Positions 11,920 through 58,847 of a stretch of 64,000 nt of DNA are shown here, in pieces. The position numbers and the translations under genes were made by a program. Origin of the DNA: Paratrimastix pyriformis. Its lineage: Eukaryota; Preaxostyla; Paratrimastigidae. The notes below the pieces were generated by a model. It did not search any database, was not told the origin of the DNA, and worked only from the letters and a program-made list of their open reading frames with translations. The stretch's first letter is position 1. Each line of letters starts with the position of its first letter. The stretch covers positions 1 to 64,000 of the forward strand of contig JAPMOS010000071.1 in assembly GCA_027972325.1 (NCBI GenBank), read 5' to 3'.

Positions 11920-14900
11920 ATGCAGGGCACGGGCGAGCCGCCACTCCGTATTTATGATCTTCTGATTGATCGGTTTGCGAACTTGTATGGTGCCGAAATT
12001 CTGGACGCTCCTCTCTATGGAAAGGACGGGTGCCGCTATTTTGGTGGGTGCATCGCTGGAATCATTCCTCATTTGCCCCGGATCAGGGGGATGGGGTTCA
12101 CCCATATTATGCTCACGCCTTTTTTGCTGGGTCAACTCGGTGATCCGACCGGCTACCACGGTTCCCACATTGTCGATCCTGGGCGCCTCGATCCTCGACT
12201 TGTGGCTGGGTGGAATGGTCAAGGGGCACCTCCCTCCGATGAGGTGCTCATTGAAATCTACAACCAATTTTTGGAAGCGATGAGACGCTCGAATCTGAAA
12301 CTTATCTTCACTTTTTCCCCCAATCATCTCGTTCCTTGCGAGATGGTCCATCACACTTTTCGGGAACCCACGCCGCCCCCGCCCACGGTGACCACATCCA
12401 CATGCACGGTGACCACATCCACATGCACGGTGACCACATCCACATGCACGGTGACCACGGTGACCACGGTGACCACGGTGACCACGGTGACCACACCCAC
12501 GGTGACCACACCCACGGTGCCGGAGGTGCCCGAGCCTGTTTTCGCAGTCGATGGGAACAAGAACAGGATCCCATTCCTCCACTTCACTGATCTTCCCCTT
12601 TGGAAGTTGGACCACAGCTCTGCGGGATGTCGGGCCTACCTCGTTCAGGTCTGTTGCGCATTCTCCCCTCCCTTAGCTCACTCTCGCTCCAGTCGATTTC
12701 CCGATGGACAGCTCACAGCGACGTTGTTGATATTATTCGGTTTGACCATGCCATCGGGGTCGAGCCGGCCTTCCTGAAGTTGCTGGTGACGGATCTCCAG
12801 AATCAGAGAACAAGCGCTCACCTCAAGCCGCTGCGTTTCATGGCCGAGATTAACCTGACCAACATCCGCAGGGAAGCCCTCCACACCTTGGCTCCATCCC
12901 TGAAAGATGTGATTTCTCCGGGGGACTCCAACTGCCGCGGAGAACTGAAGACAGTCAGTGAAAGCGTCTTTGAGACTGTGCGGCAGCGCTATGCGGAGGT
13001 CTGTCGCCTCAATCATCCAACCCGCTCCCACACGCCCTTCATAGGCTGGCGTCAACTTCTTTGTGGACATGAAATGCCACGAGGCCTTGGTGCTCTACAT
13101 GACGAAGATCCTCAAAACAATGCGGTCCCCATCAACATCCATGGGTGCAGAACCATTCCCTCCTCTTCCCCCCGGCTGCGTCGCCTTCTTTTCCGGTCAT
13201 GACATGGACCGGGCTCCCATAGCGGTCGCCTATCGTATGGCTTGCCAAGAAGGGCTCGCTCCTGAGCTGGCATGGGATGTTCTGGCGGACAAAAAGAAGC
13301 TCCAAGCGTTACGTCCGCCGGACGATTATGTTTCGATCATGCGCGGTCTGCCGGATCACCCGGTCCAACTTCCCCTCAATCTCAATGTCTATTCCACAGA
13401 GAGTCTCCGCATCCTCCAGGCGGCCCACGGCATCCACATTTTGGTGTATCAAGGAGATGAGTACCCCGATTGTGTGCATCTTCACCAAACGAAACTCCGG
13501 TATACTGCAGACTTTGAAGAAGGGTGTGGCGATCTCCATTTCCGGCAATGCATGCGCTTCCCGGATGTCGCTAAGCCCGGCTACTGGTGCGGCCGCATCG
13601 GGGCTGTTCCGACCGAGGAGATCACTCGCTGGTTGACGGCCCGGCAACTCCGCGAACAGTTCGCCCATGTTGCTCTGAAAGATCTCGCATCCCAAAACGT
13701 GAAGCGGCGCCGGATCACCTGTTGCCCCACTTCCAGCGGTCGGATTGCCTGGGCCTGCTTCGGCTGCAGCCGCGACAGCCTCGAGCCACATCCCCACCGT
13801 TCGGGTCCTCCTGGTGCTTGTCAACCCCAGCGAAGCAGACCCTGCATTGGACGATTTGCCAGCCTCCTCGAAGAAAGCCAAAGAACTCCCTTTCCATCCA
13901 GAAACAGTCTGCTTTCGCTGTCTCTCGGATTCACTTTCTTTTGGCACCCAATAGCGATTTGTGGTGCACCTTCTCACACAACCTGGAGAGCGCGTCCTCA
14001 AAGGTCTGCCACGCAGCATCAATCGGCCACAACCGTGTTCTTTTTAGAAACGATCCTCAGCTTCTCCCCCCACGTGGTTGCCTACCTGGGTCACGGGTTC
14101 CACAATGCCATTACCATCTCCGCCGGGAGCGATATGTCGGGGCCGCTACCACTGGGGCGTCTCGGCCCGGCCGCACTGCTCAATTGTTTTTCGGGGAGTC
14201 CCCAGGCTTCGGCACCCCCGGCAACAGCCACAGCCACAGCCACAACGACAGTGGCACCAGACCTCGCCGGGGCAACTCCACCGCCAACGCCCCTAGAAGC
14301 CACAGCCACGCCCCTCTCAGCAACCGCGCCCCTGGCACCCTCAACGTGCCCTGATGCCGTGATGCTGCTGTGCTGCAACTCGCTGTTCATAGGGGAGTAT
14401 CTCCAACGGAAGTTTCCCAGTCCCTCCGGAATGCAGCGGGTCGTGGCAACGGCGGATGAACTCCTGGACGAGGAGGCGGCCTCCTTCCTCTCATACCTGC
14501 TGGCCTACGCGCCGCACAACATCTCGCCCGAGGGGTTCAGCGATGGTGCTATCAAAGTTGCGATCAAGAACGCACAGGAGACCCGGGCACACTATTGCGG
14601 TCGATACGACCCCATCACACCCCTGGTGCTCCTCAGGCGTCTGACGCCCCCCCCGCAGGACGATACTTGGTGTGGATGCACTTTTGAGCGCAGTTCGCTC
14701 ACGCTGGCCGAGTCCGTCCACGTCTCCCGTGACATCCATCGTGGCTATCGATTGCGGCGCACGTGCGAGTGTACGGTGAAGCAACCCAATTACAAGTCCG
14801 AACAAGCTTTCGGTTGTCTCCAGCTCACGCCGCCCCCGTTCTCTGCCGAGACCTCCACCATCGGGGGTCAGGCCGGTGTCGCTGCCACGGCCGCCCTGCC

Positions 14901-57900: not shown

Positions 57901-58847
57901 ACTGGCCATCGGTACGTAGAAAAAGATGTTGTTGGCCGAAATTGAAATTCGGGGTGCGGGAAAAGAAGTAGTACGGAGTGTGAGGGGCGCTGAATCGGGG
58001 GTGGGGGTGGGGTGGGGTGGGGGTGGGGTGGGGGTGGGGGGGGGGGGGGGGGGGTGATATAGACCACGCGCTTCGGGGCTTCCAGTTTGATCATGTTGAT
58101 TCCGCCGCGGAAGGCCTGCATCACCACCAAACAAACAGACCCCCCGGTGAAGTCGACACGAAAACGTCTCTCACACCCCTGTCAGTCTGACCCACCCCGT
58201 ACACGGACCGCGGGATAGTCAAAGTATGCCTGAGCACGGTGTTGTTGAACGAGGCTGCTGTAGAAACCCTGAAGACCCGATCGATTTTGTTTTTTTTTGT
58301 GGATGGAACCCCCGGGACAGACCTTCACAAAGGCAAGCGCGCAGGCGTCAGCCAACTCAACCAGGGAACATATGACATATCGGATATTGGTAATTTTGCA
58401 GGCAAAAGCTGCGCTCGAGCAACAGTTCAGAAAGAGGGCGTTCGGGGTGCTCTGTGGAGGAATGGCCATGAACAGATCGACCATCACATCGGTGCTGACG
58501 AAGCGGGGTTTGTGGCTTTATTGAACGAGAGGAGTGGTGATAAAAAGTAAAATAAAATGGACGGAAGAAATCCCAGAATGTGGAATGAGAGTGAAGATTT
58601 CAGACTCCTGTTCCTCGAATACAAGAACGCCCTGCGATGCGAAATGATGTCCACCGAAATGGATCACCTCTGGGCGGACGGGAACAGAGAGCGAGGTCGC
58701 CAGATCCGTCACAGTGGCGCCGGGCTGCTGATCAAGGACAAAATCGGGTCGCGTGATGCGCTGAATGTCACACAGCTCATCCAAAAGACGAAGGTGTGGT
58801 TGGCCCTTTGGGGCACACAGGAGAAGCAGGATGCGGGGCTGCCCCAT
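51973..58847 (-). CDS. CHAT protease with downstream leucine-rich repeats
   Basis: The ATG at 58847 opens a CHAT domain: [29 protein letters not shown] with the catalytic His, then after an intron [31 protein letters not shown] with the catalytic Cys, [28 protein letters not shown] and [16 protein letters not shown] Pro/Thr/Ser-rich linker (57.9-57.3 kb) and an Ala-rich helix ([17 protein letters not shown]) follow. Short exons near 56.3 and 55.85 kb lead to ribonuclease-inhibitor-type LRRs, one per exon: [20 protein letters not shown] (55.0), [20 protein letters not shown] (54.65), [20 protein letters not shown] (54.35), [20 protein letters not shown] (54.05), [20 protein letters not shown] (53.7), [20 protein letters not shown] (52.9), [20 protein letters not shown] (52.35), and a terminal exon [20 protein letters not shown] stopping at 51973. 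Whether CHAT and LRR belong to one transcript is inferred from strand continuity. Confidence 0.6.
52185..52270 (+). repeat. SINE-like element family R3
   Basis: GGAACGTGCAACGCG, GAGGAACGTTTC, CGCCTGCGTCCTTGCAAATC, CACAGCATGTCTCTGA, in an intron between two LRR exons. Confidence 0.65.
52440..52780 (+). repeat. GATTGGATGGGTGATGATT-type repeat
   Basis: Degenerate GATGATTGGATGGG units interrupted by an R3 copy at 52506-52560, in an LRR-gene intron. Confidence 0.85.
52506..52560 (+). repeat. SINE-like element family R3
   Basis: GGGAGGAACGTTTCTCTTCG, CCTGCGTCCTCGCAAATACA, CAGCAGTCTCTCTGA. Confidence 0.7.
53174..53202 (+). repeat. Poly-T run next to an R3 copy
   Basis: About 29 T (53174-53202), joined directly to GAACTTGTCCCCTGCGCTCT at 53203. 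A homopolymer abutting a short repeat is what a reverse-transcribed tail would look like, though here it is at the other end. Confidence 0.6.
53201..53242 (+). repeat. SINE-like element family R3, 3' part
   Basis: GAACTTGTCCCCTGCGCTCT, CGCAAATATTTGCACTCTCT. Confidence 0.55.
53450..53700 (+). repeat. Imperfect tandem repeat of about 60-75 bases
   Basis: Units contain CAACCAG or CAACAAACAG, TGCCAATCCAAACAGAGTGG, GTGGCGGACCGTGATCAGGG and TGTT. Four copies, the last running into an LRR exon. Confidence 0.75.
55000..55145 (-). repeat. Duplicated edge of an LRR exon
   Basis: CCCAGATGAAGCTGCGCGCA plus GATGAAC occurs at 55022 and again at 55119, each preceded by a related AACTGGTTYTCCCCC stretch. 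The second copy lacks the rest of the exon. Confidence 0.7.
55540..55680 (+). repeat. Direct duplication GCGTGAAATT...AAGAA
   Basis: GCGTGAAATTTAACTGCGGT plus GTTTTCAAAGAA at 55542 recurs with one change at 55631. On the minus strand the motif reads ENTAVKFHA or ENTAVQFHA, a likely exon edge of the LRR gene. Confidence 0.7.
55749..55792 (+). repeat. SINE-like element family R3, 3' part
   Basis: CCTTGTCACCTGCGCCCTCG, CAAATCCACAGCATGTTCTC. Confidence 0.65.
55940..56256 (+). repeat. Tandem repeat of about 70 bases, five copies
   Basis: Each unit contains CCTCTGCAGGGCGGCGTTCG, GATTATTGTGAAACACAACG, ACGATCCGATGCAGTGCGGA and CGGACATAAA, with small indels. It fills an intron of the CHAT-LRR gene. 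Confidence 0.9.
56430..57140 (+). repeat. Very long GAT array
   Basis: 56470-56884 is about 138 uninterrupted ATG triplets, the longest pure microsatellite in the window, followed by GATTGG-broken arrays to 57140. It lies in an intron of the CHAT-LRR gene and is the source of poly-Met, poly-Ile and poly-Ser ORFs. Confidence 0.97.
57370..57548 (+). repeat. GTTGTTGGTGTTGAT array in the CHAT linker
   Basis: About 180 bases of GTT/GGT/GAT triplets. On the coding strand the frame leading to the downstream linker gives Thr/Pro/Ser repeats. Confidence 0.85.

Follow-up and report, generated by a model that had tools for sequence, protein, structure and literature searches.

CHAT-domain genes with F-box-like/leucine-rich repeat and GH13-like partner modules in the protist Paratrimastix pyriformis

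The stretch of DNA analyzed here, referred to as the window, comprises 64,000 nucleotides of Paratrimastix pyriformis (C465:1-64000 of the genome assembly searched, which has 56.06 Mb in 495 contigs) and contains three genes, A, B and C, with regions resembling the CHAT protease domain, all of them within 47 kb. For the published assembly of this species, a size of 56.6 Mb in 633 scaffolds is given in the available part of the report (PMC10703272). The original prediction, made from the letters of the window alone, had placed in a protist three CHAT-fold proteases with three different partner domains. The host is a protist, a free-living anaerobic flagellate of a deep branch, the three loci with their His and Cys motifs are present, and the spliced reading frames are open. 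Gene structures, domains and motifs are given in Table 1.

Table 1. Positions of genes, domains and motifs in the window
Feature	Position	Strand	Remarks
Gene A	11920..15207	+	spliced model 1021 amino acids, open frame; GH13-like barrel, CHAT and CxxC tail
Exons of A	11920-12648, 12693-12998, 13045-13738, 13779-13906, 13955-14003, 14048-15207	+	
GH13-like barrel of A	11920..13700	+	Pfam match below cut-off, and GH13 motifs
Barrel motifs of A	FSPNH from 12313; Asp of IRFD 12744-12746; Glu of MAE 12846-12848; Asp of GHD 13201-13203	+	
CHAT domain of A	13796..14634	+	first strand from 13796; His 14092-14094; low-complexity linker; Cys 14374-14376
CxxC tail of A	15031-15114	+	
Gene B (PAPYR_8358)	15683..20117	+	1358 amino acids
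Exons of B	15683-16805, 16850-17049, 17100-17558, 17635-17704, 17752-18696, 18743-18924, 18968-19016, 19069-20117	+	
F-box-like start and leucine-rich repeats of B	15683..17500	+	reading of sequence
Alpha/beta-like domain (RPDVLIFSCPC...) and Cys-rich part of B	17769..18690	+	conserved, 6 rows aligned
CHAT domain of B	18802..19583	+	first strand from 18802; His 19113-19115; Cys 19326-19328
CxxC tail of B	19845..19922	+	WCLRC ... RCKRCG
Gene C	58056..58847	-	stand-alone CHAT
Exons of C	58847-58606, 58515-58323, 58268-58203, ~58115-58056	-	
Dyad motifs of C	His 58649-58647; Cys 58421-58419	-	
Second GH13-like gene	2198..4820	-	motifs DVTPNH, IRLDHAIG, VAEVN, LDNHD; closest in-window relative of A barrel

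Gene B was spliced from frame analysis alone, and the result is letter-for-letter identical to the NCBI protein PAPYR_8358 (P0002), from which all 7 introns were recovered. From the N terminus, its protein comprises an F-box-like/leucine-rich repeat (LRR) region, an unassigned alpha/beta-like domain, a Cys-rich part, the CHAT domain and the CxxC tail. Neither an F-box match (PF00646/PF12937) nor a match for the LRR part was found in B by Pfam. The paralog PAPYR_8145 is named F-box domain-containing in UniRef, and a frame adjoining B at 20.5-21.1 kb has an F-box-like Pfam score of 24.0 bits against a cut-off of 24.3. The middle domain was also considered as an inactive CHAT in tandem before the active one, in the manner of separase; it showed a weak in-register likeness to CHAT, but this arrangement was not borne out, the score of 19.5 lying within the range of 100 shuffles (best 21.7). 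The domain at 17769-18100 and its counterparts in the paralogs could be an inactive CHAT or receiver-like. The CxxC tail, shared by A and B, is complete in three of the four annotated proteins that reach that far (P0002, P0003 and P0006), and P0004 contains the second half only.

The model of gene A is a prediction from frame analysis, and the intron at 13739-13778 is its least certain part. Residues 1-141 of the barrel match the Pfam Alpha-amylase family (PF00128) at E 0.0015 and 18.3 bits, under the cut-off of 22, and no Alpha-amylase match was obtained by Pfam for the second half. The second GH13-like gene of the window, whose own Alpha-amylase score of 19.3 bits is also under the cut-off, is 56% identical to the barrel over 140 aligned positions. 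More GH13-like relatives of the barrel were observed on contig C79, for example at C79:616686-618016. The barrel retains Asp, Glu and Asp at the usual GH13 catalytic positions, with one motif Asp and the Asn of NHD altered. As judged from these motifs, the barrel is GH13-like and keeps most of the usual catalytic positions, which is more than the "sugar-binding" role first proposed; the GH13-like and LRR partners proposed for A and B were themselves supported.

Gene C has a less certain last intron and 3' end (poly-C tract). Most of its model is backed by the paralog PAPYR_10729 (P0001), encoded on contig C56, with 85% identity over 87%. Upstream frames that appear TPR-like by eye were rejected as a partner of C, because a tRNA separates them from C and their coding region is a different one, closed by a stop at 59061-59059. 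C is therefore without a partner domain, and the window has two partner types, not the three that had been claimed. The tRNA, a tRNA-Arg (TCG) at 58927-59002 (-), is directly upstream of C, and a long (CAT)n tract occupies 56460-57100 (-) downstream.

By sequence homology, all three genes are judged to be CHAT genes, C clearly so and A and B past the reach of Pfam. With 21.7 bits (E 1.6e-4), C fell slightly short of the Pfam CHAT (PF12770) cut-off of 24. Its paralog P0001 is 29-32% identical to bacterial plasmid CHATs over 90-98% of the domain (best E 6e-12; best 10 of 80 records) and matches the solved CHAT protein 8tl0 at E 4.5e-6. For the profile comparisons and the tree, 15 bacterial CHATs were used as the comparison set, with 100 column shuffles and unrelated LRR and Cys-rich profiles as controls. 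The two-row profile of C and P0001 scored 119 against this set (P 7.6e-20; best shuffle 21.2). The A/B group profile of 15 rows, with linker columns removed, aligned over 138 columns at a score of 40.3 (P 1e-5, HH probability 82%), compared with 21.9 for the best shuffle, 13.5 for the LRR control and 14.1 for the Cys-rich control; when the linker was kept, the score was 32.8 (P 2.5e-4, HH probability 43%). In this alignment the GHG of the A/B group is matched to the bacterial His column and its CNS to the Cys column, with order and register preserved. The profile search suggested earlier for the spliced proteins thus bore out the CHAT identity, by a near-threshold Pfam score for C and by profile-profile comparison for A and B.

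At least 30 CHAT loci were detected on 17 contigs of the genome (group I, 13; group II, 8; group III, 5 plus fragments; group IV, 3; group V, 1), these counts being lower bounds. One of the three group IV loci is a 44-residue piece, and seven loci lie on the 210-kb contig C459. The "local family" of the original prediction is indeed a family, and it is genome-wide rather than local. The Pfam CHAT cut-off was exceeded by the group V copy C90 (40.6 bits) and by C444 (30.3 bits), one of the two group II proteins tried, the other, L076, being without a match; the two-row profile of group II matched group I at P 4.4e-7. Group III matched group I at P 4.8e-20, despite dyad loss, and gave nothing against the bacterial CHATs (P 0.52); the group I profile had no match in PDB.

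Of the 13 group I loci, 12 have both the His and the Cys motif intact, as have all four group II loci read (of 8), both group IV loci read (of 3) and the single group V locus. In group III, four of the 5 loci are long enough for a judgment, and all four have lost both residues, as read from the sequences, with two of them also aligned. This dyad-less branch comprises L026, L027, L029 and L035, of which L027 is joined to a Cys-rich part. The dyad motifs of A and B are conserved, and His-Cys contact and proteolysis are predicted from them.

A tree of 37 rows separates groups I, II and III from groups IV and V together with the 15 bacterial CHATs, with both branches at the midpoint root, where long branches meet, supported at 100/99. 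Group III adjoins group I (99/90), and the place of group IV among the bacterial rows is weak (81/50). A and B are found with Paratrimastix copies only, and C and C90 are on the bacterial side, in agreement with the earlier view that A and B are relatives with a shared CxxC tail and that C is nearer to bacterial CHATs. C thus belongs to another part of the tree than its neighbors. The simplest reading of this topology is that CHAT entered the lineage twice. In searches for close relatives, B found five P. pyriformis proteins only and C found one. A search of a large protein set with the CHAT region of A scored no relative and missed its own paralogs too, low-complexity words having probably filled the candidates. 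Prokaryote genomes scanned with C90, P0001 and C yielded one relative, in Microseira, and an NB-ARC or NACHT gene is adjacent in 3 of the 15 bacterial relatives fetched.

The order seen in B, in which CHAT is preceded by an F-box-like/LRR region, the unassigned domain and a Cys-rich part, recurs among the group I loci (7 of 13 including B; the others are C459 at 93, 157 and 192 kb, C463, C27 and C321). Other arrangements were also observed. P0003 contains a second CHAT unit in which the middle domain is present and LRR absent, and L076, the sole group II locus read far upstream, has ARM-like repeats by eye (Arm_4 E 0.063, under the Pfam cut-off) and a Cys-rich part. In P0004, from C459, the contig of PAPYR_8159, a Sey1/RHD3 helix bundle is joined to LRR-CHAT; this may be a merged gene model, as P0003 resembles two units in one. 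For the CHAT core, the ratio of nonsynonymous to synonymous substitution rates (dN/dS) was examined in the 20 closest of 55 pairs; 19 had values of 0.22-0.51, and the youngest pair had 0.77.

Other protease and defense families were also sought. The caspase/metacaspase family C14 (PF00656) was absent from Pfam scans of A, B, C and the annotated relatives at E up to 1, and no TPR was matched by Pfam in A, B or C. PADLOC found no known defense model in 5 proteins, and the only NCBIfam match was a weak one to HetF for C90, at 18 bits against a cut-off of 1200. Separase identity was rejected: the genome has two PF03568 matches, both at one other locus on contig C464, outside the CHAT loci. A gasdermin search gave no match, and its controls were also silent, so that it is uninformative. 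In UniRef, B, PAPYR_10729 and two further members of the P. pyriformis family are already named "CHAT domain-containing"; the bare domain call is thus not new.

On balance, A and B are taken as two members, and C as a distant third, of an expanded set of CHAT (caspase/separase-fold) cysteine-protease domains in P. pyriformis, and sensor-triggered proteolysis by A and B appears somewhat probable, as the best reading. The N-terminal module, a GH13-like barrel in A and LRR behind an F-box-like start in B, would bind a ligand, and this binding would relieve autoinhibition of the CHAT domain. The freed His-Cys dyad would then cleave a partner protein or its own chain, as in TPR-CHAT/Csx29 and the fungal repeat-CHAT sensors; a role in recognition of prey or pathogens, or in cell death, would be a possible output. 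Activity, triggering, substrate and such a role are all inferred by analogy. The reading draws on the CHAT homology, the dyads retained in most groups, the differing recognition modules, the dN/dS of the CHAT core and the NB-ARC or NACHT genes next to bacterial relatives. A more elaborate form of this reading, in which receptor-proteases exchange their modules (LRR, ARM-like, and a GH13 sugar enzyme with a related gene nearby), the dead branches act as decoys or inhibitors and the GH13 form is an alpha-glucan-gated protease, is tentative and rather improbable.

Several results weigh against sensor-triggered proteolysis. No Pfam CHAT match was found for A or B, and C matched the group I profile directly at P 0.012 only. 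The His is gone from one group I copy and both residues from an entire branch, so that some members can hardly be proteases. NB-ARC and NACHT had no Pfam match in A, B, C, P0001 or P0003-P0006, leaving A, B and C without an NTPase module, and the dN/dS of the LRR part was 0.26-0.64 in three pairwise comparisons. Receptor-like diversifying selection is therefore not seen in these pairs, and the likeness to immune receptors that had been put forward at first was not upheld. In the pair of B and L049, dN/dS was 0.59 and 0.41 for CHAT and 0.26-0.40 for LRR; CHAT is thus no more constrained, and the pattern of a conserved effector with a fast sensor is not seen. Synonymous divergence (dS) in this pair was 0.31 and 0.45 for CHAT and 0.66-1.14 for LRR, and gene conversion of the CHAT part would fit its lower dS in this one pair.

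That the C-terminal part of A and B resembles CHAT by its GH and CC motifs only would agree with the missing Pfam matches and with the missing PDB match of the group profile, yet it is highly improbable: the profile alignment is nearly full-length, in register and above all 100 shuffles and the unrelated controls, a further link runs through group II, in which C444 passes the Pfam cut-off, and UniRef names B as CHAT domain-containing. More can be said for a CHAT fold without proteolysis, a worn relic or binding module in a drifting family whose intact-looking dyad is simply inherited. The dyad loss in group III, the group I copy without His, the distance of A and B from bacterial CHATs and the constraint measured in the B/L049 pair all fit such a scaffold, but retention of the His and Cys motifs in nearly all of group I and in every group II locus read, within an otherwise divergent domain, makes it quite unlikely.

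Protein turnover, rather than danger sensing, is another possible function. The F-box-like start would dock the LRR proteins on an SCF ligase, the LRR would pick substrates, and CHAT would process them or serve as a platform. Seven group I loci for which upstream sequence is available, B among them, share the F-box-like/LRR start, and the UniRef name of PAPYR_8145 and the near-threshold frame beside B point the same way. The Pfam F-box is absent in B, however, and the GH13-like A and the ARM-like form are without an F-box-like start yet have kept CHAT; such substrate receptors are considered unlikely.

A side finding concerns the introns of the CHAT-family genes, which begin mostly with GTCTG, GTCCG or GTTTG, not GTAAG or GTATG. 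The base at +3 in 36 introns was C in 27, T in 8, G in 1 and A in none. For this tally GT and AG were required and the introns of A and C were left out; 25 introns came from splicing annotated CHAT-family proteins (32 rows, with 7 duplicates or paralog mappings dropped by hand) and 11 from proteasome genes (L083, L085, L086, L087 and L089), where sites were hand-picked for readable protein. The doubtful last intron of C would begin with GTACGG, with A at +3. U1 small nuclear RNA (snRNA) usually starts with ATACTTACCTG; all 8 of the U1 matches in the genome (L041-L048) begin with ATACAGACCTTG, at 50.8-60.2 bits, under the Rfam threshold of 69.5 (41 of 992 candidates scored). This changed start is complementary to AAG|GTCTGTAT, the G at position 6 pairing with C or U at +3. 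Of the 4 U6 copies, 3 were read, and each has a normal ACAGAGA box. As judged from the U1 pairings, U1 and the 5' splice site appear to have co-evolved in Paratrimastix. In the oxymonad Streblomastix, conserved A, U and G at +3 to +5 are described in the available part of the source (PMC1501061). Among the matches listed for open-licence literature on Paratrimastix/Trimastix introns, Paratrimastix snRNA and the U1 of Monocercomonoides, the available passages contained no report of a splice change. Two other neighbors in the window are ordinary: TRM13-type zinc fingers and a GCIP protein, at 49596-50519 (+) and 62620-63774 (+).

An open-licence literature search on CHAT and protists found no account of the P. 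pyriformis CHAT family, its sole match concerning Chlamydiae, and a similar search on Paratrimastix with CHAT or caspase found no paper on the family among the matches listed. Among known proteins, the short plasmid CHATs of bacteria share the tree side of C and C90, whereas C has introns and A and B lie on the other side. GH13 alpha-amylases have the same Asp, Glu and Asp positions as the barrel of A, judged by motifs; they differ in that A scores under the Pfam cut-off and its barrel is fused to CHAT. Separase has helical repeats in front of its protease, and its locus in this genome is not among the CHAT loci. In the passages available, separase (PF03568) resembles CHAT in fold, and the TPR-CHAT/Csx29 protein of type III-E CRISPR is RNA-triggered (PMC9729208). 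The latter has the His-Cys dyad in a CHAT behind a repeat domain, as is seen here, and is switched by a ligand, as is predicted here; the present genes have no CRISPR part and no TPR.

CHAT proteases of fungi are described as gasdermin activators, and the fungal repeat-CHAT and NLR-CHAT proteases, with WD40, ANK, TPR or NLR modules, are often beside gasdermin genes (PMC12881547, PMC10197012; passages available). They too are multidomain proteins of eukaryotes in which a repeat module is attached to CHAT, whereas F-box-like/LRR, ARM-like and GH13-like parts, several with a Cys-rich part, are used here. Corals show a comparable lineage-specific expansion, with 276 and 304 TPR-CHAT genes in two Acropora species according to the available part of the report (PMC12314368); TPR is the partner there, in contrast to about 30 loci and other partners here. 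Fungi, corals and bacteria all have known repeat-CHAT sensors according to these passages, so that the A/B type is, by analogy, a further putative form of CHAT sensor. If this is true, a metamonad far from fungi and animals would have receptor-protease genes with CHAT executioners, whose partner domains are not named for CHAT in the literature passages available. The fusion of a sugar-enzyme barrel with a caspase-like protease would be a sensor open to direct testing, and the dead branch would serve as a natural experiment on the regulation of active copies by inactive ones.

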